Shown one piece after another: positions 1,429 through 59,160 of a stretch of DNA of 64,000 nucleotides. Position numbers and translations under genes: made by a program. Source of the stretch: Sclerodactyla briareus (Eukaryota > Echinodermata > Holothuroidea > Dendrochirotida > Sclerodactylidae); assembly GCA_026419785.1 (NCBI GenBank), contig JAODTK010001621.1:62001-126000 (forward strand), in the 5' to 3' direction. Within the stretch, counting starts at the first letter, position 1. Each line of letters begins with the position of its first letter. The notes below the pieces were generated by a model, which saw nothing but the letters and a program-made list of their open reading frames with translations, did not search any database and was not told where the DNA came from.

Positions 1429-1714
1429 CGCAACGTCCTTGACAGCTAACGATCCTGTTGTTTTCTCTTCCAGCAGCCTCGTGACCTCGCCATTTTCCCC
1501 CCTCCCAGCTTGCTCTTCATCACATGTCCCTGTCGGTCTCCACATCCCAGCTCCACCCTGGGGGGATATCCCGTAGACGGTGGGGCTTTGTTTCAGCTTG
1601 GGGGCGGGGTAACCGCAGCGTTGTGATCAACCCGTCACCTCCTTTGCAGTGGTGGCGGACCAGCCGGCCACCGAGTTGAAGACAACACTTCTACTTCTCG
1701 TTGGTGACAAAGAC
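1429..1714 (-). CDS. ABL: Abl tyrosine kinase exon (a4-like): end of SH2, linker, start of kinase domain
   Basis: Abl kinases are cytoplasmic tyrosine kinases, held inactive by SH3-SH2 docking, that act in actin and growth signalling. On the minus strand the acceptor is good: a pyrimidine run ends in GAGACAG before GTCTTTGTCACCAACGAG (VFVTNE). The SH2 end follows, with LVRHHC and DGLITTLR, then the linker with SPTVYGIS. Next come the kinase start KLGGG, a glycine loop readable as KYGEVYEA once two missing bases are allowed, and IVAVKTLR with the ATP-binding lysine. The domain content and the break after VAVKTL match vertebrate ABL exon a4 as I recall it. At least six single-base indels break the frame, and fixing them restores consensus residues. 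The donor is uncertain: GTTAAT at 1428 is weak and may contain an error. Partial gene; the rest of the kinase is outside the window. Confidence 0.9.
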
Positions 1715-3378
1715 CTGTCTCAGGAGGAAACAAGGAAAACCATGACACAGGCAGAAACAAACACAAAACAGAATGCAAGGCTCAACATTAAGAATGCCAT
1801 ATCGAGTCGTTTTGGTCTCAAAGGGGATAGCCATATCTACGATTCGAGAGTCCACTCGTGCACTGTCAATCTTCCTGCAACGTTTACGTGAGGGCTGGCA
1901 TGAACGGAATGACATAGTGCCACACCCTAGTTTAAAGGATATGCCGATCCCATGGCTAGTCAGTGGGTTAAACTGCAACGGAAGTGGTAAAAAAGTAGTC
2001 TCATCTGCGCATCACTTTTAGGCTCATCTAGCAACCATAAGGTGTGGTCGTAGATGATCATGAATAGCTTGCCTTCTCTCATAACATCCCAGTGCTAATA
2101 GACTTTACTCTGTGGACCGCCATTTAGCATACCCATTTGACAGAAAAGTTTGGGAATGCTAGTCTTCGGGACACTTCCTACAATGAAGGAAAGTATATTG
2201 AATGCACTCACAAATGAACATTATCTGAAAAGTTGAATTGGGAGAAATTCATTGTACCCCTGACTAGCAAAATACGGTAACAGTTTAGAGGGGGAGTGTG
2301 GGGTAATTCAAACAAGCATTGCAACACAAGCCGCACTGCCTAGTCCCCTAAGGAGGGCTCCCACAAACTTCCCTAGTTGGTTAATCTTTTAGCAACGTAT
2401 ACTACTTATCAGATAAGACCCCCATTCTGGTCACCCGACCCCCGCCCTGCCAGTCTGTCTCTGGCCGTCTAAAAAATCTTGCTCCTTCGTGGTACCCACT
2501 CGCACAGTGTAAAAGGTGTTGAATACTTGAGGTCATTCCTCATACACGTCAAGTTTTGCCATGCAATGGCAACAACTGCCAACATCATAATCATATCGGA
2601 CCAGAAATCATGTACCCAGCTAGAATTTTTAGTTTTAGTTTTAGATCACCCTCCATTTTTTTAACGTAGGTCAACCAACACAATGGTTCAAATTTTCAGC
2701 CCAGGTCCAATTTCTGTGTCAATTATAATAACATAAAGTGATTTTTACTTCAACAACAGATCAATTACAACACCAAGAGCTTGTTTATTGAGTGTCCTGA
2801 AAAGACAAAGCCTGTTATTATTCCAATGAGTGTGGTAACTTAGGCCCAAGGAATGAAATGGCCACTCTAACACCTGGCCTGATGAAATTGGCCATCTCTA
2901 ACAAACTGGCCTGACGATTTACCTGACAAAGAAACGTTTTAAGTACAATACAAATAATGATGTTACAACCCGGGGACTCTATTCAATTGTCCGAAGTCCG
3001 AAACCTTATTTCATACAAATGTTCAGTATGGAGAGTTATGGCCTTTAAAGTTTGGTCCATTATACAGGGAAATTAGGGAGACTCACTAATTTTCAAAGTG
3101 GAATTGATTGTACATTTCCATAGGAAACACAGAAATTTTGCAGGGATGCTTTTTCAAACAACCTTGTACAATACAACATAGCACCTACTTCAAGGCCTTA
3201 AACTCTGAACCAAGTCATAATGAACGTTGGGTTTTGACTGATGCATTCAGTTCTTTTCCCAGCTCTTATATTAACCTCTTCCTTTTGATCTAATAAATAC
3301 CCACAATGATCTCATACTTACACAGCACCCTTCCCTCCAGTTCTTCCCTTCTGAGCATTCTTGCAATTTATTGCTTAC
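1715..3378 (-). other. Abl intron between a4-like and a3-like exons
   Basis: The 1.66-kb intron is bounded by GTAAGC at 3378-3373 and the pyrimidine-rich acceptor ending at 1715. It joins GATGGGAAG to GTCTTTGTC, which reads DGK-VFV in phase 0, the same place as in vertebrate ABL. It contains one copy of a dispersed repeat near 2967-3092. I see nothing else of note. Confidence 0.75.
2967..3092 (+). repeat. Dispersed repeat, AAAGTTTGGTCCATTA family, copy 1
   Basis: The core AAAGTTTGGTCCATTA is followed by an AGGGAAATTAGGGAGA-type segment. Related sequence occurs on the plus strand near 44158-44315 and on the minus strand near 46070-46235 and 50814-50975. The copies share order and spacing of several blocks but differ by many substitutions, so the family is old. 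No coding sequence or clear ends are visible. Confidence 0.6.
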
Positions 3379-3685
3379 CTTCCCATCGATACCATTGCTT
3401 ATCCCTGTAATGGTAGACCCCCGCCCATCGGAGCCATGGATATCGAAATCTGGCCGGGGACTACTTTCGCTGTCCCTGACGCGGAAGCTCCATCAATGCC
3501 GCTGGCTCATCAGATACGCGGCGGTGTTGCGAGCGAATCCGCCCGGGGTACCAGAGTGCTTCTCTAAGCTGCTAGAGGGGGTCACGTAGGTGGATGGAAC
3601 CCACCTGTCTTCCCCCGTTGGCTGACCTTCTGGAGCTCGAACCAGTCTCCAGCCTTGTCGTATGACGAATCCGGACATCTTCCGC
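3379..3685 (-). CDS. ABL: Abl tyrosine kinase exon (a3-like): end of SH3 and most of SH2
   Basis: On the minus strand the acceptor is CCCTCATTCTGCAG after a pyrimidine tract, and the donor is GATGGGAAG followed by GTAAGC. Different frames read in turn GDWFELQKVSQRGKTG (SH3), WVPSTYVTPSSSLEKHS (SH3 end and SH3-SH2 connector), RNTAAYLMS, SFRVRDSESSPGQ (SH2 phosphotyrosine-binding strand, arginine kept) and VYHYRISNGIDGK. The vertebrate counterparts, from memory, are WVPSNYITPVNSLEKHS and SFLVRESESSPGQ, so the identification is firm. About ten single-base indels split the frame; the missing T in TCTGGTACC, for example, removes the W of HSWY. Splice sites are intact and conserved residues return on correction, so assembly error is likelier than pseudogene decay. 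Length is 307 bp, against about 296 bp for human a3. Confidence 0.93.
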
Positions 3686-4349
3686 CTGCAGAATGAGGGA
3701 AGAAGAACACTCACAGATTGCTTGGATCCCTCTATGGACACTGACTGACCCTTACCGCTGCGACTGATACCGTCGCTGTTATCGCACTAGTTTACTGGCA
3801 CTTCTACTAACTTGTAGTACCAGGCTGCTGCCACTCTTTTCACCGCACTGTCCCCTCTAGTGGCCCGATTGGATCGTGCCCGAATGTAGGAAGGTCAAAA
3901 AATAGTGAGGAAGAGAAACGGTCGCAAACCACAGTGTTGGGGAGTTTGGTTGACCCAGAGGTAAGTAGGTAGGCAGTCAAAAGCAAAAATAAAGCCAAGG
4001 AAGAAGTTATAAATCAAGACTTCATAACAAGTTTAGAGTGGTCATGACCCCCCTAATCCACCCCCTACCTCCTCATCCTAGCAGAGGCTGTGCCCTTGAT
4101 CATTAATTTTTTTTGACTGTTGAAGTGAACAGTGTACCAGGACAATCAACAATCGAATAAGTGACAAATGCCAGGAAAATATATCAGTTCAATTAATTGT
4201 TGTGATGCTCGTATCCATGTGCATACCTAAAAGTATTCAGGCAAAGCAGTATCTGATGGTCATAATGGTGGGAGCTGGAGCCATGGTCTTCTAAGAAGGC
4301 ATGTGTGGAAAGTTACTTTCAATTCGTCAAATAAACCACATCAACTGCC

Positions 4350-4492
4350 CGTGGGGGGAGGGGGGGTGTGGGGGGGTGGGGGGGGGGTGGTGGGGGGTAC
4401 ATGCAATGGACACGTGCATTATAGGGGTGGGGGGGGGTGGGGGGGGTGGGTGGGTGGGGGTGGGGGGTGGGGGGTGGGGGGTGGGGTGGTCA
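4350..4492 (+). repeat. G-rich tract with quadruplex potential
   Basis: About 140 bases are nearly all G with scattered T. Two copies of CATGCAATGGACA (near 4391 and 4490) bracket part of the tract. Runs of three to nine G at short spacing could form G-quadruplexes. It sits on the antisense strand of the Abl intron, so the pre-mRNA here would be C-rich. Lengths of the G runs are probably unreliable. Confidence 0.8.
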
Positions 4493-4862
4493 TGCAATGG
4501 ACAAGTGCAATGGTCTCTATAGTTTGTCTATGGCGCTACAGGGTCTTCCTTTGGGTGCCATCTGCCGCTGACTTCATTCTAAGAAGCCCCAGGGGGAAGA
4601 GGGCCATATGTAAGAACCCAGTTACCCAGCTGCTCACCTATGGCGAAGAGCAAGCTCCAGTTCACATGACTGTGGAAAAGGAGGTTCAGTTTTCTTATGA
4701 TCTATTTCAAAATAAAGGGGACTACCCGAACTGAGGGCCAGGGGCACGTTAAATCTATATGTTTTAAATCTATGTGGCTGACAAAAAACTTCAGCACAAA
4801 GACCCAAATTTTTGTCAGAATATAGAGATTCAGAAATAGATAACTTCAGTTAGTATCTTTAT

Positions 4863-5288
4863 TTGGACACCTATTTGTCCGACAAACTCTATAGCGACTT
4901 CTCCGATGTTCAGAAAATCTCTATGTACCGACAAAACAATTCGTACCGATGTCACGATGATAAATGTGCTTTGCGCAGACAAATGGACATTGTGACGCCG
5001 GAACATTTTATAGACATATCGTGCAATAGGTCTCGCGGTCGGCTGGGAGCAGTCGCGTCGAATCTTACGCTCCTCCAGGTTCTGAGAAAGTGGTCAGGTC
5101 GGAGTTCACGGGATCGTCGTCGGATGGGGGACGTTAAAAATGCTTGGTCCCAGGAGCAGGGTTGGGTCATCCGCATCGCGATATCATCTGAGCACCGGCG
5201 AGAAGAGAAGGCGGATTTGGCGCCGGTGGCTCATCCACGATCACCATTCGGTTGGGGTTCCACGATGAGTCGAATTTTGGAGTCCTGA
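4863..5288 (+). other. GC-rich intronic patch with a 141-codon open frame, no known family
   Basis: The patch is clearly more GC-rich than its flanks between 4980 and 5280. An open frame covers it on the plus strand and shorter frames exist on the minus strand. The translation is rich in R, S and K, with no domain I recognise and no splice sites or Kozak context. It may be a mobile-element remnant or a chance frame in GC-rich DNA. Confidence 0.25.
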
Positions 5289-5298
5289 ACCTGTAGCA

Positions 5299-5321
5299 AT
5301 CAAATCAAATCAAATCAAATC
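5299..5321 (+). repeat. (AATCA)n microsatellite
   Basis: Four to five perfect tandem copies of AATCA, directly after the GC-rich patch. Confidence 0.9.
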
Positions 5322-5424
5322 TTGTCGGTACCAAAGCACCAATTATATGACGCGCCCAAAGACCATTTTAATCGCGCTCTGAGGTACATTTGGATCAGTA
5401 CTAAAGGTACTATCTGACGTGGAA

Positions 5425-5548
5425 CATCGAGACGTTGGACTTGAGAGACCTTGGAACCATAGGGTTGTCGGAACCAAGAAAATGTAATACAGGGATGTCT
5501 GAACCTAAGACGTCGGAATATGGGGACGTCGAAACCTAGAGACGTCAG
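5425..5548 (+). repeat. Degenerate short tandem repeat with GACGTCGGAAC-like units
   Basis: The segment has repeated variants of GACGTCGGAACCTA, seen as GACGTTGGACTT, TTGTCGGAACC, ATGTCTGAACCTAA, GACGTCGGAATA and GACGTCGAAACCTA. Spacing is about 20-30 bases. It looks like a decayed minisatellite. Confidence 0.55.
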
Positions 5549-8542
5549 ATGATGATGAGATGTCCCCAGTGAGCACATTTGAACCTCTGGTTACAAAGTT
5601 CATGCCCTAATCTTTCAGGTAATCTTCTTTTATGCCACTTCCTGTTTTCCCAGAAAAACTATGACGACAGAATGCTCAAGCTACGGGATTATACTCAGTG
5701 ACAGGTATCTTAGAGACCTGTTATCTGTTGCAGTAACAGACATTAATGGTTTTATAAATCAAATATATCTCATAATTGCAGCCTAATGATTTCCTGATTT
5801 TCCTGGGTATAGTCATAAGATGGTTATTTTTGTATGAGTACGAGTCTCAGTATTGCCGAACATGATTAGTCTTGTTGAAAGGGGTCGTTACCCTGGCAGG
5901 AGGAACTAACTGATCCTCAAAACATTTAACAAACATGAATGGACTCCACATTGTTACTGACCATCCTCATAAGTCTGGAGTTAGCTTCCCCTATGAAGTC
6001 ATGTTATAAATCTGGTGAAGAGGTTTCCCAGAAATGAGTTTCATAGAGACAGCAATAATTAAAGGGGGGGTATTGGCCTTCCAAGAACCAGGGAAAAATA
6101 TTTCTACCAACCTGTAGAAAGGCTACGAGGACCTCAATATAGACAGTCTATATTACCATTGGTGGTATTAGTATGGGCCAAGTTTAATGTAGCCACCATT
6201 AACTTATCAATCTGTGATAAGGTTACAGGAAGAAGATGACCTGTTACGAGCAGTCAATTAACGAAAACTACACGCCCGGCGGATTGCCCATTGGCATCAT
6301 AATATTAACAATCTTGTATTTCAGGTGAAGACAATCTGTTCTGTACTTGAATTTTCTACATCAAAAATGACGTGTCTTTCGTGGGACAAGGACAACACTT
6401 CAACACATTCACAAATTGATTCCCAATTCCAACTGCTGAGGGAATCGAGACAGGGATCTAGCCGGGCAAAATGTCAAACCGGGGGGGAGCTAGAGATGGC
6501 AAACTTTGCACCTCATTCAGTAAGTAACAAAATTGCCATTTAAAATCATTGATAGGTCAAGTGTAGGTTACATGACTGCTGCACAGCGCAAGACACTTTA
6601 TACAAAATTAGCATTGGGGTTATGGGTCTGTGGTCAAATGCGGGTCGTTATAAGTTGCAAACTTGCGACGTGGGGTGAAAAGTGCTAGAGATAACAGAAA
6701 TGAGTGACTGCTTCTGTGAAGTCTAGTTTGTCCCATGACTCTTGCTTGAATTGAAATGACTTACTCGCACCATATTTGGGTGATTATGACAGCTTTGAAA
6801 ACATATTTAAATGAATTGTTACACGAATTGAGAATCATTAGTGTAACATATTCAGACTAACATTGAATTTGGAGACTGAAATCAAACATGTGCTGCCATT
6901 GTCAAACCAGGTGCTAAATATTTCAATAACAGGAGGTGAACTGATAATCAAATTGACAATGGGTGCAGCTCCATTTCGAGTGCTTTGCTGGGACCCCACG
7001 ATGTTTGTTTAAGGTTGATTTAGGCATAGATGAGGGCCCACCACCATGCATATAGCAGGCTTAGAACACACAAAGGTTTGAAAGAACATCTGGGGATTAT
7101 GACCAGTGTTGTTGTTAGGAGGCTCCTAACATCGTTGACCTAACCTCAATTTTTGACCTCGATGAACCCAATGACTGGTGCACAAGATGGAGGGAGCTCC
7201 ACTCGAGGAACCTCATAACTGAATTTCAAGGAAACTCTGCACTATTTGCAACACGTTATGTGACTTTACCTTGATTGGCCTCGTAAAGTGGTTGACCTAT
7301 CGAGTCAATGAACACTGTATCCCTTCTAGGGAAGCATCATGCGGGCACATGTCAAACATGCATGTTTTTTGAAGCTCCTTCAGCCTTCAAGAAATGAGCA
7401 TCAGTTATATGAAAATGAAATGCCGCATTCTAATACCTCATCTTCACGGTGAAGTTCAAAATTACAGCACTAACAATAACCCCATTGGACAAATCTAATT
7501 CATACAAGAACAGGCAATTGTTTCTGGGTGAGCATGTGCGCTTGTACATGTTACCTATAGCATAAATCTGCTTGATAGTCCTCATAGCATTTTTTGGGGA
7601 ACTTGGCCTTCATGAATAAAATGGCAGAGCTACCACGTTGCATTCAATCAATCAATATGCTGGTCTTTATATTCTCACAAAGTAGCAGCCTGCATACAAT
7701 GATAAACATAGGCAGTGGGGAGGGGGGGAGGGGAACGAGGGCACTAGGGAAGGAATGGGGGCAATATATTTGTCAAGTGCAGCCGCAAAATATAAATGTG
7801 GAAATACCTATTGTTAAAAAAAAAGTTGGATTTCTCCAGAGCACCAGCAACCCAAAGACTCCCATTGTTTTTGTAACATATAAATTGCTGCCTTCACTGT
7901 AAAACAATAGGTGTTTTTCTGTTAGCCCCAGGCAATTTCAACAGAATGGCATATGTTGAGGGGGTTATCGGCCCAGTAAAACACTATTGTCAGGACTCGT
8001 TCCCTTCATTAGGTGGCACAAAAGGGAATCATGTGAGCTTCCCCTGGCTGGGTGAATGAGAAGAAGTGCTATGGTTGGAATGTGCCTGTAGACACATCCA
8101 GTAAGGGAGCAGGCCACAAACTCTAACAATATCAATATCATGTAGTACAGTACTGAGGAAATTTGATGGCAAACATAACGAATAGCTAATACACAGAAAT
8201 GTTGCAGGTGGAAGAATTCTCAAGGTTGTTTCTATTTTACCAAAATTAGATTTCTCTGCAAAGTAGAAAAGTCAGGTTACATGGAACATCTTCGGTTTTG
8301 GTACCACTATAAAAATCCTATCTATTGTATGAGAATTTAAAGTTAAGAGGATTTAAAGGTTAAAAAATAACCAAATAGCGGAAATATTAATTCCAAAATT
8401 TACATTTAAAAAACACATTCGAAATATTTTTTTTAGTGGCTTAATACAAGTTTTTGGGGTCTACTTTTTGCAATCCGAATGAATTATGACCCAGTGGATG
8501 TATTTGAATGAATGCCTATCCTTTCAATGTTTATGTGTGAAA

Positions 8543-10338
8543 TGTCCTGTCCGTCACAAAAAAAAATATGAAAGTTCTTTTTTCATTTAAGGATAGTCTG
8601 GACCTAAGCCAAGTCAATATACTATAGAGCTACCCAACATCCAGAAAGCAAAAATGAAATTGTGGTTGATAGTGAGGTGCTAAGAATATGCCAAAACTAA
8701 ATTGTCCATCCGTCACACAGTGTCCTGTCCGGTCACATGTGTTTCCGTCCGTCACACAATATATTCAGTGTGTCCTGTTCACTTCTATTATGAAAATCAT
8801 ACAGTTTATATCACAAAACATTATTAAACAGTCTGTTTTTACCTGTAGTCAATTCAAGTTACCCTTCAGGTACAGGGCTTTGAGACCATCCCGGAAAAAC
8901 TGTTAACCCCTGGCCACAAAGCAAAAAAGCATACCTATCTCTTCAGATTGAGGCAAGTGTGTCAGCAGTTCATACGTCACCGTCCCAGGATGTGCAACCA
9001 ACCATACTCCAGCAAGCCTCCTGGTCCCATAACAACTTATATCCATCAGAGAAAAACATCCAAGTGTAGGTACATGGGTTAAAGTCATGTATGAGGAGGG
9101 CCTATAGGCATAAACCACGGGCAAAAAAATGTATGTACTGTAAATAATTGATTGAAGTGTGGAAGCCTACAATTTTGAGCAAGAAAGAGGTGGTAGTATT
9201 TGGTACAATGTAGATGATTTGTAGATCCAATGGAACATGTTCACCAGTTGATACTTTAGGACTATAGCTTATGTCTAATAATTGGCCTAATTCATACACC
9301 CCCCCCCCCCAACCCCGGTGTGCTGTAATTTTAGACTACAGTTGGCCATTAAATTGAACGGGACATCCATCCCAAAGCTAAGGGGTGGGTAAGTAAATGA
9401 GCATGATCATGATTTCAGGAAAGAGAAGTCATTCATTTTCTCAGGTCCTTCACAATGGTAATCAAAAGTGTCAGAATCACTTCACTCCACCTTCTCTGGA
9501 AACACTTCATAGATTTCTTCCCTCTAATATCGCCCTCAACTCTCCCTCAATAATCCAACCCATATGTCTCAAGGGAAGTTACGATATCAAAAAGGATGTA
9601 GCTATTTCACACGCATGGTTTTTAGACTCTTTCTCGGGTTTGTATGTTAGCGTCAATGGGTGCACCATGTGGTGGCCACAAGTACTTTGAACTGTTGCAT
9701 TGAAAATGAAACTGGAAAAACCTGGTACTAGAGTCCCGTCCCAGTCCATCAGGTCCCGTCTGTTCACATTCCTGTCAGTCACATTTTCTGTTTGGACGGA
9801 TCAGAGATTTTTCACAATCTTTGTTTTTGTGGTCGTGAGCCATTGTTATTCATTTAGCCATTGATTTAATACCTCGATAATGAAAAATTGATAGCCTAAA
9901 ATTTAACTTGAGGGTAAAAAAAAAATGATAAAAAAGTGACAAAAATGTCCCGTCCATTCACGTCCCATCCGTCACAATTTTGACATCCCCTGTTTTACAA
10001 GGTAAGCTTATTATTTTTAAGTTTAGTTCTATTTTTTTGTTGATATTCATATACCAATAAGTAATTTGCATGATTGTTCAAGCAACTTGAATAACAACAG
10101 ATAGCTTTTCGAAAAATTATGTTTTTCAGAAAATGAGGTTTGTTTTTGTCCCGTAATCACACTTAATTCCAAATTGGAAGCATGAAGCACATGAATCACC
10201 CTCTTCCTTTTTTTTTGTTTCTAATTGAAATGTTATGTATTGTTAGACTTCAAGCATGTAACATTGTTTAATACACCTGTTAATAGTTTGTAGACAGGCT
10301 TCGGAAAAAAAGAGTAGTCAAATGTCCCGTCCGTCACG
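8543..10338 (+). repeat. Cluster of TGTCCCGTCCGTCACA motifs
   Basis: Variants of TGTCCCGTCCGTCACA occur at about 8543, 8703, 8721, 8741, 9752, 9771, 9946, 9962 and 10323, all on the plus strand. Intervening DNA is AT-rich and not obviously repeated. The motif is 16 bases and most copies differ at one to three positions. This is either a decayed tandem array, a repeat-element core, or a protein-binding cluster; the sequence does not say which. Confidence 0.6.
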
Positions 10339-10459
10339 CTTGAGTTAGCCACATTTGACGTACGTTATGGAAATTAAATATGTACGTGTCAATTGGCCTG
10401 ACGTGCCCGTTGTAACTACCTCAGACAAGGTGAGTTGTCGCATTTTATACATGGTTTAA

Positions 10460-10881
10460 TACTGGTATAATATGACCCCACCCCTCAATTCAACACCCTC
10501 AATCACCCCTTGGTTGTGCCTGACAATCATGAACAGGCGGAACAACCCACAAGTCACTTCAGCGCCCAAAGACCATACTTTGGGAAGTTGCCAAAGGTCT
10601 ACTTACGTGACCCTCTGTGCTTTAATTCTCAACATGAACACAACCCCAGCCTATGTTTTATAATACCAGGGGTGCATCTTAAGGATTATGCAGGCATAAA
10701 ATTGGCTTTGAGCCTGTATAGTGCAAGTGAAGTACACGAGACCACATGCCTCATCGACCCTACAGACGTTGAAGAATTTCACGCCTTAATTTCTGACCGG
10801 CTGGGTATTTTGCACTCTTCATTGTATGACACTGACCGCGAAGTTCATCAAAGGAGGGTCCCTGCTATTCTTTGTACATAA
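10460..10881 (+). CDS. Unidentified open frame in the Abl intron, antisense to Abl
   Basis: The frame from about 10460 to the stop at 10881 gives some 130 residues with balanced composition, for example PGVHLKDYAGIKLALSLY and TDVEEFHALISDRLGILHSS. That is more protein-like than most frames here. I do not recognise a family. There is no clear ATG, and splice sites are not obvious. It could be an exon of a nested gene on the plus strand, a fragment of a mobile element, or chance. A dispersed repeat begins just after it, at 10885. Confidence 0.25.
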
Positions 10882-10884
10882 TCC

Positions 10885-11070
10885 GGGTAGATTGACACAC
10901 CCCAGGGTCACGTCTTGGACTGACCATCCAGGGAAAGTGACACCCATGTGAGTCACTTATGATCTATGACCCAACTCGACCTGACCCAAGGGCCAGCCCT
11001 GTCCTGGACCCCCCAGTGGCTTGCGCTTTTTGACTGAAACCATGTCCAGGGTTTGGGGGTGCATCATGCG
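10885..11070 (+). repeat. Dispersed repeat, ACACCCCAGGGTCAC family, copy 1
   Basis: It shares blocks with 21147-21290: GACACACCCCAG, then GTCAC, then TGGGTCACT, then CCCAGG and GGGGGTGCAT. The two copies are in the same orientation and clearly related, though diverged. Confidence 0.6.
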
Positions 11071-11079
11071 ATTGGACGA

Positions 11080-11265
11080 AATCTTGACGGTGAAAATTCC
11101 TCAGGAATTTCTAAGCCAAGATGCTCGATTGTAGACAAACGTCTGGCTGAAAATGAGAAGGGTGATGGGTGGCCAAACCCCGGACTTTTGTACATTGTCA
11201 AAGTTTCAATGGCGCGGGGGTGGGGTGCAGGTCCAGTACAAAGCTGAGTTGAAATCCTGAGATAG
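11080..11265 (+). repeat. Dispersed repeat, GGTGGCCAA / TGGGGTGCA family, copy 1
   Basis: It carries AATTTCTAAGCCAAGAT, GATGGGTGGCCAA and CAATGGCGCGGGGGTGGGG. The same blocks are seen reversed at 39421-39635 and 63264-63385, and the right part is seen at 11573-11686 and 16695-16832. The full element probably ends with a GTCCATGTGGGGTAAGTTGA segment. Confidence 0.55.
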
Positions 11266-11572
11266 ATTAGTACATCAAGAGCACTGGATCTTCTTCTCTC
11301 CAACAGATGCAAACACAGAGCTCAAGACAAATGACAGTGGGTATGAAAGTATAAGGTGTTCATTTCATTGGTTCCATATAGTCCCATTTGAGAGAGCTGG
11401 TATTGATCTGACCATCCAAAGCGGACCGTACCGGGAGAAATAATGTTAGGCCCCTCAATCTCCGAATATGGGCATTTCCATGGTGACAGACGTCTGAATT
11501 GATATCTCATTTGTGAAGCTTTATTAGTTTTTACATTTAAAATGCATTTCCAATGAACAACATTTTGTTTTT

Positions 11573-11686
11573 ATGGGCGGGGGAAAGAACCTCTCTAGAA
11601 CCTGTATCTGTAATATCCCAAACGAACATGAAGTGGGGGGGGGGTGCTTAGTCCATGTGAGATAAGTTGAATAAATGAGTCGATTT
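11573..11686 (+). repeat. Same family, right-hand part
   Basis: GGGGGTGCTTAGTCCATGTG is followed by AGATAAGTTGAATAA. This matches the end segment of the 16695-16832 copy. Confidence 0.5.
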
Positions 11687-12479
11687 TGTAATATATATAC
11701 CTGAAAATAAAACATGAATGCTGGAACTTATTCCTGCGCCTATTACCTATCTAGCCTCAAACAGATTGAAACAGGTGCTGTACAAAATTAGACATCAACA
11801 TCAATAATATCATCAGTGTTTCAGGCATGAGCTCCAGCTCTGTCATTTAAGGCATCCAAGAATGGGCAAGAAAGGGCCTTGAAAACTGACACACTCCCAA
11901 AGCCAACTTCACACAGTAAGTTCACAGCAATGGAGAAAACCTGATCTGAGATGGTGTCAGAACTGATAAGGCTGTATGGCACCTGATCCGCCAAAGTGAT
12001 GGGCTCCTCCGCACCATGGTGTCAACTGTAAATTGCTGCAATCAGGTGGCAGGCTAATAACGTATGCCGCACGACTCATGTGACTTAGTCGACTGGACTG
12101 CGCAGACACCATCTCTGCAAACAGAGGCCTAATAATCCCAGGCCACAGTGATGGCGAGTGGACTGTTGATGGGTTCGTAAGTTTTGATAGTTGGAAAGAT
12201 TCCAGATCTGGATCTTTTGAAAATTTTGCAGGATCTGACTTCGAATTACCTCCACTTTTGTTGGGTTTTATGCGCCCGGTCTCGGTAGAATTTCTGTGTC
12301 TGGCTACGCTAACCCTAATCCCATTCTCCAACCATACAAAAGATTTAATAGCTACAATACAGTACTACTAGCCAATCAGAAAATACCTACAAAAGTAGGA
12401 TCAGCTGCTTCTGTTAGGACCAATCCAAATCCACATCAACCAAGTATTGTTTAATTGAAGAAAAAAAACTTTTCACAAA

Positions 12480-12740
12480 TGCGACTTCAGGTGACCCCAA
12501 AATGGCCACCATTTCCACTGGGCCCAAATGTAGTCTACATCCACCAGTTTTATTTAAATCCCAGAGGTCGATCAGGCCACTACCCCATCCATATGTATGA
12601 CTCCAACCCATGTGCCCCAAAATGCCCCCCATTTTTGTCAGGCCCAAATGTGGTCCCATCCACCAAGTTTTGTTTAAACCCAGTGATCAATCGAACCCCT
12701 ACCCCTGTCCAACCGCTGTATCATGTCTATCATCGCTAGT
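12480..12740 (+). repeat. Two tandem copies of a ~125-bp dispersed repeat unit
   Basis: Each copy contains CCCCAAAATG, then GGCCCAAATGTAGTC or GGCCCAAATGTGGTC, then ATCCACCA(A)GTTTT and TTTAAA(T/C)CC. The ATCCACCAAGTTT block recurs at 14933, 50277 and in the 56-61 kb repeats. An open frame across both copies is a by-product of the repeat. Confidence 0.6.
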
Positions 12741-13084
12741 CAGTCAGGAGAGACTGGAGCTCAGCATATTCTAAATGGGGGGCCCATCCATTTAAGATAC
12801 ATACAACTTGTTCAAATGGGAACTTGACTGCGCTCAATAGAGGCACAGAGAGTTCGGTGTCTGCCTGACGAAGCACCGTGCAAACACCCAGAGTGACCCG
12901 GCCTGCATTCTACAATCAATGCTGATGCCCACCGAGCGTTTAACAGGCCCCTTACCAGCCGTGAAATTTGTAGCACCTCTCCAAGAGAGTCTCACCCTCC
13001 CTTGGGAAGGAGGGGGTGGAGAGGATGGCTGAGGGTGACCTGGGTCCACCCCTTCCTGGTCAATCGATCAAATCAAGAACGTAC

Positions 13085-13287
13085 CTTTTCGAACCGAGAT
13101 CTGGTTCTCAGCATCACCACTGAAGTCAAAGAGGACCACAAAGAGGTCTGGGTCCCGCGTCTGTGCCCCCAAAAAAAGGACGTCTTCGCTGGAGCTCCAC
13201 CCGGTCAGGTCGCTGGGGTGGGGGGGGTCCATGGAAGGGGGTGCTGGGCAGAGGTCGAGACTGGATTCACCTCCTGGTGGAAGTTGT
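13085..13287 (-). CDS. ABL: Abl tyrosine kinase exon (a2-like): pre-SH3 segment and first half of SH3
   Basis: On the minus strand the acceptor is TGCACACAG and the donor is CGAAAAG followed by GTACGT. The frame reads WSSSEDVLFLG, then DPDLFVVLFDF (the SH3 ALYDF-type strand) and ENQISVRK. From memory, vertebrate ABL has RWNSKENLL, DPNLFVALYDF and NTLSITK at these places, and its exon also ends in phase 1 just before the GEKLRV strand. Here the next exon supplies G-E-D-V-R-I. From the conserved tryptophan to the donor the frame is clean. Upstream, a run of eight C near 13225 probably hides one miscounted base, which would link this frame to the phase-1 exon at 33239. SH3 binds proline-rich partners and the SH2-kinase linker. 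Confidence 0.92.
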
Positions 13288-20644: not shown

Positions 20645-21053
20645 ACTGAATGATGCGCTCCCCTAATCCTTGGCATGGTGAGTCATTGTCAAGGGTGGGT
20701 CATGCAATCCTTGTATATTGATGGTACTGAATGATGCGCTCCCCTAATCCTTGGCATGGTGAGTCATTGTCAAGGTTGGGTCATGCAATCCTTGTATATT
20801 AATGGTACTGAATGATGCGCTCCCCTATCCTTGGCATGGTGAGTCATTGTCAAGGGTGGGTCATGCAATCCTTGTATATTGATGGTACTGAATGATGCGC
20901 TCCCCTAATCCTTGGGCATGGCGAGTCATTGTCAAGGGTGGGTCATGCAATCCTTGTATATTGATGGTACTGAATGATGCGCTCCCCTAATCCTTGGCAT
21001 GGTGAGTCATTGTCAAGGGTGGGTCATGCAATCCTTGTATATATTGATGGTAC
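20645..21053 (+). repeat. Tandem repeat, five copies of an 81-bp unit
   Basis: Units start ACTGAATGATGCGCTCCCCT at about 20645, 20726, 20807, 20887 and 20969. Copies are almost identical, so the array is young or homogenised. Most differences are single-base indels, such as CCCTATCC for CCCTAATCC and TTGGGC for TTGGC. That fits the error pattern seen in the Abl exons. Confidence 0.97.
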
Positions 21054-21426: not shown

Positions 21427-21672
21427 ACTCTACACTGTACAACCTTCTGAATGCTATACATTGTCTCTACACTGTACAACCTTCTGAACTCTATACAACT
21501 GTCTCTACACTGTACAAATTTCTGAACTCTATACACGTCTCTACACTGTACAACCTTTTGAACTCTATACACTGTCTCTACACTGTAAAACCTTCTGAAC
21601 TCTATATACTGTCTCTACACTGTACAACCTCTGAACTCTATACAGTCTATACATTGTACAACCTTCTGACTC

Positions 21673-21706
<34 letters not shown>

Positions 21707-22840
21707 ATCACTGTCCTACACGTAAACCTTCCGAACTCTCTACACTGTCTCTACACTGTACAACCTTCCGAACTCTCTACACTGTCTCTACACTGTACAC
21801 CTTCTGAACTCTATACACTGTCTCTACACTGTACAACCTTCGAACTCTATACACTGTCTCTACACTGTACAACCTTCCGAACGCTATACACTGTCTCTAC
21901 ACTGTACAACCTTCCGAACTCTATACACGTCTCCACACTGTATGACCTTCTGAACTCTATACACTCTCTCTACACTGTAAAACCTTCTGAACTCTATATA
22001 CTGTCTCTCCACTGTACAACCTCTGAACTCTATACCACTGTCTTACACTGTACAACCTTCTGAACTCTATACACTGTCTCTATACACTGTACAACCTTCT
22101 GAACTCTATATACTGTCTCTACACTCTACAACCTTCTGAACAGGAACATAGAAAGAGTGCATTTCCTCATGCCTTGGGGCGTTTCAGGTAGGTAGGTTTT
22201 GTATCTATACACTGTCTCTATACACTGTACAACCTTCTGAACTCTCTACACTGTCTCTACACTGTACAACCTTCTGAACTCTATATACTGTCTCTCCACT
22301 GTACAACCTTCTGAACTCTATACAGTCTATACATTGTACAACCTTCTGAATTCTATACACTGTCTCTATACACTGTACAACCTTCTGAACTCTATACACT
22401 GTCTCCACACTGTACAACCTCTGAACTCTATACACTGTCTCTACACTGTACAACCTTCTGAACTCTATATACTGTCTCTACAACTGTACAACCTTCCGAA
22501 CGCTATACACTGTCTCTACACTCTACAACCTTCTGAACTCTATATACTGTCTCTCCACTGTACAACCTTCCGAACGCTATACACTGTCTCTACACTGTAC
22601 AAATTTCTGAACTCTATACACTGTCTCCACACTATACAACCTTCTGAATGCTCTACATCGTCTCTACACTGTACAACCTTCTGACTCTATACACTGTCTC
22701 TACACTGTACAACCTTCGAACTCTATACACTGTCCTCTACACTGTACAACCTTCTGAACTCTACACACTGTCTCTACACTGTACACCTTCTGAACTCTAT
22801 CACTGTCTCTACACTGTACAACCTTCCGAACTCCATATAT
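21427..22840 (+). repeat. Minisatellite, ~37-bp unit, about 35-38 copies
   Basis: The unit is CTGAACTCTATACACTGTCT followed by CTACACTGTACAACCTT. Copies vary by substitutions (TTCTG/TTCCG/TTTTG) and many single-base indels. The array is broken by 30 A residues at 21676-21705 and by a 64-bp unrelated insert at 22141-22204. Open frames on both strands here are only the repeat. Confidence 0.97.
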
Positions 22841-25894: not shown

Positions 25895-26393
25895 GCGACC
25901 ATACTCACCTTTTAAGTGCATCTAATTAGCATTTGCCCTAGTAACACTCTACATCTATGGGCTGTTTTCTACAACCCCGCCCTCAACGTACGTATAATCG
26001 GCACTGAACAGAGCCCCTCATTCTTGTTTCGCCCGATATACGAACAAGACGTCTTAGTTGAAAATAAACGTACTCAGCCGATACCTTAAGAAATCTTTGT
26101 GAGAAGAATAATCCACAAGAAATTCCTTACACAATTCGTAAATATACACCGTTAAATCCGTATAATCCAGGGAAATCCAGGAAAGTCCAGATAAAAGTAT
26201 TGATACAATAAGTATTACGTTGCGAGCAACTAGACGTCTTGTTCGTTCTCAGGCGAAACCATATGAGGGGGCGTCCTTTCAAGTGCCAATTATACGTACG
26301 TTGAGGGCGGGGTTGTAGAAAACAGCCCATAGATGTAGAGTTACTAGGGCAACTGCTAATTAGATGCACTTAAAAAGGTGAGGTATGGAGCGC
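25895..26393. mobile_element. Foldback / MITE-like element with long terminal inverted repeats
   Basis: The left arm has AAGTGCATCTAATTAGCA, then CTACATCTATGGGCTGTTTT, then CTACAACCCCGCCCTCAACG, TACGTATAAT, CCCCTCAT and GAACAAGACGTCT. The right arm is the reverse complement, about 140 bp outermost plus further matches inward. The arms differ at only a few sites. The middle (about 26060-26200) is AT-rich and has no transposase. Length is about 0.5 kb. I could not settle a target-site duplication. Confidence 0.85.
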
Positions 26394-31802: not shown

Positions 31803-32395
31803 CTCGAAGGTGGAGCAATGAAGGCAATTGTCATCTACATGTAGGTGCCTATACTTTATAGGAAAGACCCTAGTTTCCAGAGACTGCAGTTTTCAACCAA
31901 TCAGCACAAACATTGCCCTTGTCACAAGGGCACAATCAATGGAGGGGGGGGGGGAGTGGTAGGCATCCTGACCCAACTTATTATGGGGGCATCTAACATA
32001 CCATGGGTCTCTGCTGCTGTGTCCCCCCCCCACTTCAGAAGTGGTTGCACCCTAGGACCCCCAACATTTCATGACACATGTAAAATAAACATAGCTCTCA
32101 AAGGTGGAGCAATGAAGGCAATTGTCATCTACATGTAGGTGCCTATACTTTATAGGAAAGACCCTAGTTTCCAGAGACTGCAGTTTTCAAGCAATCAGCA
32201 CAGAAATTGCCCTTTGACACGGTGCAATCACAATGGGGGGGGGGGGATCAGAGGGGGGAGGCATCCTGACCCAAACTTATTATGAGGGCATCCATACATA
32301 CCATCTTTCACCCAAACTGTGGGGTCTCTGCTACTATGTCCCCCCCCCCCCCCACTTTAGGCAAGTGGTTGCACCTTATGGACCCTCCAACTTTC
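31803..32395 (+). repeat. Tandem duplication of a ~294-bp unit
   Basis: Both copies contain GGTGGAGCAATGAAGGCAAT, TGTCATCTACATGTAGGTGC, CTATACTTTATAGGAAAGAC and a G run, then GGCATCCTGACCCAA. The copies begin at about 31803 and 32097. Copy one ends in a single AAGTGGTTGCACCCTAGGAC unit. Copy two runs into the minisatellite of that same unit. Confidence 0.93.
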
Positions 32396-32803
32396 AGCAA
32401 GTGGTTGCATGTTATGGACCCCCCAATTTATAACAACTTTCAGCAAGTGGTTGGACCTTATGACCCCCCCCCCCTTATGGATCCCCCAACTTTTAGCAAG
32501 TGGTTGCACCTCATGGAACCCCCAACTATCAGCAAGTGATAGTGGTTGCCCCTATGAACCCCACAACTTTCAGCAAGTGGTTCCACCTTATGGACCCCCA
32601 ACTTTTAGCAAGTGGTTGCACCTTATGGACCCCCTAACTCATAGCAAGTATTCCACCTTATGGACCCCCAACTTTTAGCAAGTGGTTGGACCTTATGGAC
32701 CCCCAACTTTTAGCAAGTGGTTGCACCTTATGGACCCTCCAACTTTCAGCAAGTGGTTGCACCTTATGGACCCTCCAACTTTCAGCAAGTGGTTGCACCT
32801 TAT
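32357..32803 (+). repeat. Minisatellite, ~36-bp unit, about 12 copies
   Basis: The unit is CAAGTGGTTGCACCTTATGG followed by ACCCCCCAACTTTTAG. Copies differ in C-run length and by substitutions; two have lost part of the unit. It follows the second copy of the 294-bp duplication. Confidence 0.95.
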
Positions 32804-49072: not shown

Positions 49073-49333
49073 ACCCAGTGGCGTACACAGGGGGGGGGTG
49101 TGGTTTGGGGGTCAGAACCCCCCCCATGACCCCAGTGATCATACATTTTTAACACAAAAACGGAGTTTTTTGCCTCAGTAGAAGTTTTGCTGCTGTATTT
49201 TCAAATATTGCAGCAGCATTTGTCCAGGGGCCCATCACGTTTATTATTTGCCAATAGGGAGGGTGATGCCATTTATAGGGTGCACCTCCCTTGGTTTCCG
49301 ACCTCAAGCCCCCCCATGACAAATCTCTACGTA
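49073..49333 (+). repeat. Dispersed repeat, CCCAGTGGCGTAC family, copy 1
   Basis: CCCAGTGGCGTAC, then GGTCAGAACCCC, TTGCCAATAGGGAGGGTGA and CCTTGGTTTCCGACCT. It is matched block for block by 51824-52101. A CAGTGGCATAGCAAG piece near 25017 may be a further start of the family. Confidence 0.85.
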
Positions 49334-49617
49334 CAGCTCGAACTATACCGCCTGCACATGCCAAACCATGTACTCAGGGGTACGCAACAGCATAGTAGGA
49401 GATTTGTCTTGAAATGCAAGAGATGATGTTGGGACCCATAGGGTAAGGCACTCTCACACTGTAACAATGAATACAATGATAGCGATACAATTGGAGCGGT
49501 CATACCAGTGATAAAGAGCCCAAGCAACAGCAGATGGGAGCCGAATATGCTGTGAGGTTAAATTATTCAACATTCCCCTCAGTGAACAGTTTGTATCGTT
49601 CAAGTTTATCAGGTAGA

Positions 49618-49700
49618 TTATCGCTCACGGTCCACGTTATCGTTCATGTGTGATCGGCGGCATCAGGCTTGTATGTGAGCGATAACATATATATATATAT
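49618..49700. repeat. Inverted repeat TTATCGCTCAC / GTGAGCGATAA followed by (AT)n
   Basis: The 11-bp arms lie at 49618-49628 and 49675-49685, with a further GTTATCGTTCATGTG variant between them. A 15-base AT run follows. This could be a small palindromic element or a protein-binding site pair. Confidence 0.7.
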
Positions 49701-50276
49701 TGTTATGGTTACAGGGTGATGGGACCCAAATGATCTAACAACAAACCCCCCCCCTCCCTCCTATAGACATGAATGCACTTATGACATAAACTGGTGCAAT
49801 ATTTGGACCACTAAACAGGTCAAATATTTAGTGTTGAAAATTTTGTTGGTCACATGGGTCTGATTCCTCTGAAGGTTGAACCCCCGAAACTCTTCCTGTG
49901 GCAATGTGAACTCACTTCCATGTACAAACATTAGAATCTTAACCATGCAAATAACCACTATCAATTTTGCAATTGATTGCTATTGTGCAGGTCAAAAAGC
50001 ATCCATCATGTATAAAAATTATGTCATACTTGCCATGGAAAACCCTAAAATAACAATTTCAACTTGAAGATAACTAGTTTTTGAGAGAGGATTACTGTAG
50101 TGGGTTTGGCATTGTAGGTGTTGATTGTGGGATAGCTTGAAAGACACAAACCACTTTTGCAGAACGTCGAGATATTTGACACCTTAAAACCAGCCGGGAT
50201 ACACACATAACATGTGTAGGCGGGAAACTGCCCACTGTATATCCGCCACTTCTGAGCAATCATTGGGGAGAAGTAT

Positions 50277-56499: not shown

Positions 56500-59160
56500 G
56501 TACAGTCTCTGGACTTGTTGCAGTAATTTATTATTTGACATTTTTGGTCCATAATTTACCTTGAATGAACCTTTGAATGACATAAAACGGTTTTTTATGA
56601 AAAATGTTACCCTTGATCATATGCCGCATGTCCCGAAATTTCAGTTATCTAACCCACAGTCACAAAAATTGATTGGGCGAAATTGTTAATAGTTGGCAGT
56701 TTCTTGACCTCTGATGACCTTTGATGACATGAGGGTTTTTTATGAACCTGCTTCCTCAATGTGTGCACCAAGCCCAACAGCATAGGTCATCAGTTCACAC
56801 AATATGCTATCGCCAAAAGGTATTAAAATCAACCTTTAGTCCCCTTGTAACTTCAGACCAGTTGTCATATTGAAGCGGGAGTTGGTTCGTCTATGAGCAG
56901 ACATAGACTATCACATATCCAAAAATCGACAGTTTATTTCTTGGCCTGTAACTCCTAAAATAAGCACATTTTCTAAAACTTGACATTTTGACCTTTTGGA
57001 CCTTGCCTATAGATGTTGTTTGATACTGAACCCAAAAATGAGGCTCATACAAATCTCTACCAGCACCCTAGCTGCATTCATGCCAATTGTTCACTGGCCA
57101 TTTAACAAAATTCAAAAATTTTTTTTTTTTTGGGTTTACTTCTGCAAATTTATTCACATTAAATGACCTAATTGACCTTTACAAACTGTTGTTAAATTTT
57201 AGGATTCGCAATGAACAACAGCCTAATGTGATTGCGACAAAGCTATTAAATTAACACGTTGACCTCTTGTAAACTACCACGTATGCGTCCGAAAGATCGA
57301 AGCAGGAGTTGGTTTCCTTCCTCCATGAAGCACACAAAGGTCTATTCACATATCCAAAAATAACCATTTTTTTTTTTTGGCCCCTAACTCTTAAATAAGC
57401 ACTTATTCAAGACTCCACCTTTAAACCACATGACCACCTTACAGAGGTCAAATGTGAGGTCAGAGGTCACACACATGGGTGCATTTCAACATTAATATCA
57501 CAATGGTGAACCTTCCAGCCTTCACAGATATTCAATTCTCTGATCATGGCCAGAAAACATTTTTTGACCCTAGTGACTTGGATGACCTTTAATGACATGG
57601 CCGTTTTTTTTTATGAAAAGTAACCTCCCATGTGGATCATCCACTCCTAGGAGCATTTTACATTCTGATGACCATGCCCATGGCATTGCCAAAAAAGTAC
57701 TAAATCAGTTTTTTTACCCCAACGTGACTTTGATGACCTTCAATGAGCATGACGGTTTTTTTAATAAAAATTGTTACTCTCCATGTGATGCATCCAAACC
57801 TAGAAGCATTGCATTCCAATGATCACACCTAATGTTATTGCGCAAAGCTATTAAATTAAACTTTGTTCCCTTGTAGCTACCAAGTAATGCTCCGATCGAA
57901 GCGGGAGTTGGTTTCCTCCATGAAGCACACAAAGGTCTTATCACATATCCAAATAACAGTTTCTTTTTTTTTTTTGGCCCGTAACTCCTTAAATAAGCAC
58001 AATTTATTCAAGACTCACCTTTAAAACCACATGACCCCCCGACAGAGGTCAATTGAGGTCAGAGTCCCACACAATGCGGTCAACAATATATGACAATAGT
58101 GACCTTCCAGCCCTTCACAAATTATCAATTTTCTTCTCCGATTATGGCCATAAACAGTTTTTGACCCTTAATTGACCTGATGATGACCTTTAATGACATG
58201 GCAGTTTTCTATAAATTGTAACTCTCCATGTGATACATCCACTCCTGGAGTCCTTTGCATTCTGATTGAACATGCCCACGTGCTATTTGCCAAAAAGTAC
58301 TAATTCAGTTTTGGCCCCCTCAGTGACCTTGTGATGACCTTCAATGACATGTTGTTTGTTATAAAAATTGTTACTCGCCATGTGATGCATCCACTCCTAG
58401 AAGCATATTGCATTCCAATGAACACGCCCAATGTTATTGCGAAAAAGCGTATTCAATTAAACTTTGACCCCTTGTACTACCAAAGTATGCGTCCGATCGA
58501 AGCCGGGAGTTTGGTCCCCACTAAAGCACACAAAGGTCTATCACATACCCTAAAAATAACATTTCTATTTTTTTGCTGTACCATCCTGAATAAGCACATT
58601 TATCAAAGACTCAACCTCTAACCACATGACCACCCGAAAAAGGTCAAATTGAGGTTCCGAGGGTCACACACATGAGGTCAACAATTATATGTGAACCTTC
58701 CAGCCTTAACAGACATTCAATTCTCCGATTAGGGCCAGAAAACAGTTTTTGACCCTAAAGTGACTTTGAATGACAGATTAGTAACATTAAATGACCTCCT
58801 GGGGCCCTCGTCCCACTGTAAAATTCTTGGGGACTATAGATAAACCATCTCCACCGAGTTTCGTCACAATCCAACAAACTTCAAAAAATCGCAGAAATTC
58901 TGCAAAGTAACTACTTAATTAGCATATATCATGCAGATCTGATCGATTCAGTACTCTTCATAGTTGTTTATAGTACCCTACGGCAGCACCAGCATCTAAC
59001 CGATCAAGAGATATCTTGTACACAACTTCCGGCCAATGTTCATTAATATTCAAATTTATATGCAATGAGAATGGTCTTTTTGGGCCGAAAAGTGGATTCA
59101 CCAATGGCAACTCTTCAACCAGCGACCTCCACACGAAGGTCCAGCATGTGGCTTGCACGT
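56500..59160 (+). repeat. Block of ~600-bp tandem units rich in TGACCTTTGATGACAT
   Basis: A GAAGCGGGAGTTGGTT marker recurs near 56876, 57298, 57898 and 58500; the last two intervals are about 600 bp. Each unit then reads CACATATCCAAAAATAAC, a T run, TAACTCCTAAAATAAGCACA, CACATGACCACC, GAGGTCAGAGGTCACACACA and CATGTGATGCATCCACTCCT. Copies differ by many single-base indels. No coding frame persists. Confidence 0.9.

Follow-up and report, generated by a model that had tools for sequence, protein, structure and literature searches.

Does an Abl kinase gene that can be read only by jumping between frames reflect decay of the gene, correction of its message by the cell, or the state of the draft in which it was found? 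The question is raised by the window, i.e. a stretch of 64,000 nucleotides of Sclerodactyla briareus DNA (positions 62001-126000 of contig C1605) in an assembly of 319 Mb and 3171 contigs. A sequence-only reading had seen here a conserved gene hidden by single-base insertions and deletions. We are highly confident that this is an ordinary, presumably functional Abl gene and that its breaks are uncorrected base errors of a patchy long-read draft.

Abl exons in the window and along contig C1605

The minus strand of the window harbors three Abl exons, which keep the order SH3-SH2-kinase. They are named a2, a3, and a4 after the human ABL1 exons that we take to be their equivalents, and their borders presumably coincide with those of human ABL1. 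The a2 equivalent (13085..13287, minus strand), comprising a linker and the start of SH3, was found by tblastn and alignment; the acceptor cacag precedes position 13287 and the donor gtacgt follows position 13085. The a3 equivalent (3379..3685, minus strand), found by phmmer and alignment, encodes the remaining SH3 and most of SH2 between the acceptor ctgcag, preceding 3685, and the donor gtaagc, following 3379. The a4 equivalent (1429..1714, minus strand), also found by phmmer and alignment, carries the end of SH2, a linker, the glycine loop, and V-A-V-K; the acceptor agacag precedes 1714, and the donor past ~1429 reads GTTAAT, which is not clean. The earlier statement that the exons keep their splice sites was correct for all three acceptors and for the donors of a2 and a3; the donor of a4 is unclear.

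Comparison with PDB sequences by phmmer gave ABL1 as the top match of both the SH3-SH2 piece (3379..3685; E 4.3e-7) and the SH2-kinase piece (1429..1714; E 0.0041), i.e. both are nearer to Abl than to any other tyrosine kinase in this comparison. The exon at 13085..13287 matched fly Abl in tblastn with E 0.006. Frameshift-tolerant alignment of the a2, a3, and a4 equivalents yielded scores of 68, 269, and 180 when fly Abl was the query and of 59, 244, and 204 when human ABL1 was used, as compared to maxima of 58, 77, and 47 for 20 shuffled human-Abl sequences per exon. Taken alone, the exon at 13085..13287 is weak; we accepted it on account of where it lies, its strand, and its splice sites. 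The domain order of Abl kinases (SH3, SH2, tyrosine kinase), which had been read from the three exons, was confirmed by phmmer, tblastn, and frameshift-tolerant alignment. When the four open pieces were scanned against Pfam, one had a sub-threshold kinase match (E 0.28) and the other three remained blank; SH3 and SH2 were missed, which itself illustrates how the Abl domains are masked. The window was also scanned with Rfam and for tRNAs, with no matches.

The remainder of contig C1605 was searched as well, and exon positions outside the window are given in contig coordinates. Abl exons follow each other in order on one strand over ~29 kb, through the kinase domain. Exon 6 (~50226-50048), exon 7 (~47826-47633), and the next kinase exon or exons (46422 to at least 46170), all on the minus strand, were assigned by alignment and order; these stretches needed 5 shifts in 197 nt, 3 in 201 nt, and 5 in 254 nt. 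A candidate for exon 5 (~54721-54632, minus strand) has cag and gtgagt borders. It scored 45 as compared to 31 for the next-best place with the human peptide, and 35 as compared to 32 with the fly peptide; on these scores exon 5 is tentative. Between them, the exons outside the window carry HRD, DFG, and the APE region and extend to where the kinase domain ends. The glycine loop, VAVK, HRD, and DFG were all found, with single-base shifts needed in places, and HRD is divided by the a6/a7 junction. Apparently, a real conserved gene is masked by indels, as had been proposed, for it continues in order outside the window.

A processed pseudogene would lack introns; these exons lie kilobases apart and have splice sites. 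That the locus is an unprocessed pseudogene of Abl in decay through indels is in our judgement very unlikely. The unclear donor of the a4 equivalent would suit it; against this, the series of exons from a2 to the close of the kinase domain is present in order, exon 5 tentatively.

In the intron after exon 6 (C1605 ~49281-50109; L010:9281-10000 and L011:1-109) we observed seeming degenerate tandem copies at a spacing of ~120 bp, the unit consisting of the end of exon 6 and the start of the intron. The best copy scored 95 as compared to at most 60 after shuffling; three further copies scored 67-72, close to the maximum of 68 obtained in the rest of the contig.

According to the sequence-only reading, an intact second Abl locus would make the gene an unprocessed pseudogene. 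A genome-wide search with fly Abl gave 27 matches, four of which are the exons on C1605. Five of the 23 others were compared with PDB sequences, and among these no second Abl locus, and hence no functional copy that a pseudogene could be set beside, was identified. The matches on C2454, C2342, and C3080 were rejected, being nearest to DDR, Trk, and PTK7, respectively. A match of 33 residues on C341 was also rejected; its nearest entry was a Src-Abl ancestor construct, followed by an EGFR entry and Src. The kinase match on C2800 was nearest to CSF1R and FLT3 with ABL1 close behind, and a stricter limit returned nothing. A DNA search with the exon at 13085..13287 found only the exon itself.

Frame breaks in the Abl exons and in other coding genes

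The claim that the a3 and a4 equivalents are unreadable in one frame was borne out: 23 single-base shifts (11 deletions and 12 insertions) were needed in 613 aligned nt with fly Abl as the query. Counted by exon, these were 0 in 63 nt (a2), 11 in 313 nt (a3), and 12 in 300 nt (a4). With human ABL1, 11 shifts in 319 nt (a3) and 14 in 290 nt (a4) were obtained; the a2 equivalent gave 3 shifts in 99 nt in an alignment overrunning the donor. The frameshift-tolerant protein comparison that had been suggested as a check recovered the exons with both queries, a2 weakly, together with the shifts in a3 and a4. The aligner was purpose-written for this analysis. On simulated clean coding DNA it introduced no false shift at divergences of 5% (3960 nt) and 20% (3951 nt) and two at 35% (3945 nt), overall 2 in 11,856 nt; therefore, it is not the source of the shifts. 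Repair had also been said to give the family consensus. The consensus is indeed restored in the alignments, partly by construction, because shifts are chosen for their fit, whether by an aligner or by a reader.

Frame breaks reaching 12 per 300 nt in an Abl exon would also be in keeping with the decay of a pseudogene. In that case damage should be confined to the locus, with functional genes intact; this was not observed. A search for the histone family gave 4 loci, each aligning best to H3, and H3 is broken at all of them, with 44 shifts in 1576 aligned nt (7 in 278 nt, 10 in 450, 14 in 421, and 13 in 427). At locus L002 the alignment is good over ~60 codons only, where 3 of its 7 shifts lie, and at locus L003 it requires 19 inserted residues. 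H3 is nearly invariant among animals and differs here at many residues; thus, substitutions are part of the error. Two beta-tubulin genes were aligned, requiring 28 shifts in 1265 nt and 60 shifts in 1274 nt. The tubulin search had internal stops in 24 of its 34 matches, several of which overlap in different frames; the other 10 were without an internal stop, including one of 204 residues on C2306. The expectation that further genes would be masked was therefore met by H3 and beta-tubulin, which are broken likewise on other contigs, and their similar damage speaks against a pseudogene.

The search for EF1A gave one region only (45-51% identity), which aligned as a distant relative with identity at 35 of 86 codons, needed 3 shifts in 266 nt, and was not counted as EF1A. 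Ubiquitin, searched with a query shared with tubulin and EF1A, had no match among those listed. A search for cytochrome oxidase found nothing and has no bearing on the frame question.

Breaks in several conserved genes would also be seen if the organism itself corrected its frames, by programmed frameshifting or insertion-type RNA editing throughout the genome. We consider this explanation extremely improbable. Insertions and deletions are similar in number (12 vs. 11), and substitutions occur alongside them; programmed frameshifting was rejected for this want of a consistent direction and for changes not confined to coding DNA, as seen in 5S rRNA.

The distribution of shifts within a gene argues against correction by the organism as well. 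In the beta-tubulin gene with 28 shifts, 25 lie outside columns 157-395, which leaves just 3 within these 239 columns; the bounds were picked after the shifts were seen. The longest shift-free run of this gene extends over 107 codons, and 0.5% of 20,000 random placements had a run of that length; codon identity is 102/107 in this run and 241/285 outside. The beta-tubulin gene with 60 shifts has them throughout, and the corresponding test gave no sign of patchiness (P 0.88). A draft can be expected to be patchy when parts of it have been corrected and the remainder is near raw reads.

Differences in non-coding and repeat DNA

The 5S rRNA family occupies at least 32 places, with lengths of 115 to 130 bases as compared to a model of 120 positions (best candidates scored). 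A tandem array is located on C2747 (L049), where adjacent copies are often ~0.5 kb apart. Eleven of the 13 copies listed there differ from their own consensus, which served as the reference, by 147 substitutions over 1309 nt; in addition, 40 bases are inserted and 20 are missing. The multiple alignment may inflate the number of substitutions, and real variants may be among the copies. The consensus would seem to resemble that of sea-urchin 5S rRNA, as would suit an echinoderm-like animal. Because 5S rRNA has no reading frame, neither decay of Abl nor frameshift decoding explains the pattern, and copies that differ in this way on another contig count against an Abl pseudogene.

A tandem histone repeat with H2A, H2B, H3, and H4 is present on C1362 and C2362 (L019-L022). 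Identity, as listed for 24 of 26 pieces, is 68-86%, and the comparison of the two contigs amounts to 3641 mismatches and 2421 gap events over 34,695 columns, overlapping pieces entering these totals more than once. The low identity suggests that C1362 and C2362 may be near raw-read quality. Both the 5S rRNA and the histone-repeat DNA are affected, and copies of a single tandem repeat are unlike one another, neither of which would be expected of frame correction by the organism. On that explanation the indels would be truly chromosomal, and cells would mend reading frames as well as RNA sequence across the genome, through editing or frameshift decoding; we give it next to no credence.

Within the window, a diverged direct-repeat region (56911..58833) was found by repeat alignment. 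One pair of ~0.6-kb copies in it shows 48 substitutions in 655 columns together with 52 indel events, of which 39 involve one base; neutral evolution usually yields far fewer indels than substitutions. A tandem array of five 81-bp copies (20645..21053), identified by copy alignment, is relatively clean with 3 substitutions and 3 indel events, the latter corresponding to ~0.7%. The copies had been described as differing mainly by indels; indels do occur, but substitutions are equally frequent and the rate is well below 3%. One pair from a 37-bp array shows 12 substitutions vs. 4 indel events. Since the 81-bp array, this pair, and the EF1A relative show few indels or shifts, the error rate is not uniform, and the earlier figure of ~3% indels throughout has to be given up for a rate that varies by place. 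Patchy consensus correction would account for the cleaner 81-bp array.

The array of 37-bp units comprises ~39 copies (window 21428-22837), and arrays of 35-36-bp units form two stretches (window 32347-32803). An inverted repeat (window 25946-26341) has 60-nt arms that are 98% complementary and separated by 276 nt, and it may be a small transposable element. It was left out of the rates together with a 127-bp and a 60-bp pair, as these were aligned with unlike flanks.

Tandem copies differ by substitutions too, and they may do so through real divergence. This would fit a mixed case in which most breaks are sequencing errors and a small number of indels or allelic differences, within the exons or close to them, are real; no observation requires such a case, and we hold it to be even less probable than the pseudogene, if somewhat less remote than frame correction by the organism.

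Origin of the breaks and known systems

The cause of the breaks is most likely sequencing or consensus error, as like differences occur in conserved genes and non-coding repeats on other contigs. The draft, probably built from long reads, would have kept uncorrected insertions, deletions, and some substitutions, which would make the frames of a presumably functional Abl gene appear broken. The errors most likely belong to the draft and not to the organism, i.e. the anomaly is probably not biological, and the gene itself is real. The biology of Abl is ordinary here. The assembly needs polishing before claims on gene absence, pseudogenes, or reading frames are made, and its frame-based annotation would split or lose genes.

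The gene shares the order SH3-SH2-kinase with the Abl kinases ABL1, ABL2, and Drosophila Abl, and ABL1 is the best PDB match of its SH3-SH2 and SH2-kinase pieces; it differs from them by apparent frame breaks, which we judge to be assembly error. Unpolished long-read assemblies likewise contain single-base insertions and deletions that break genes. Long-read errors are reported to bring frameshifts and stops that pseudogenize genes (PMC12007338); the genomes treated in that study are small, whereas the present case concerns a 319-Mb animal draft.
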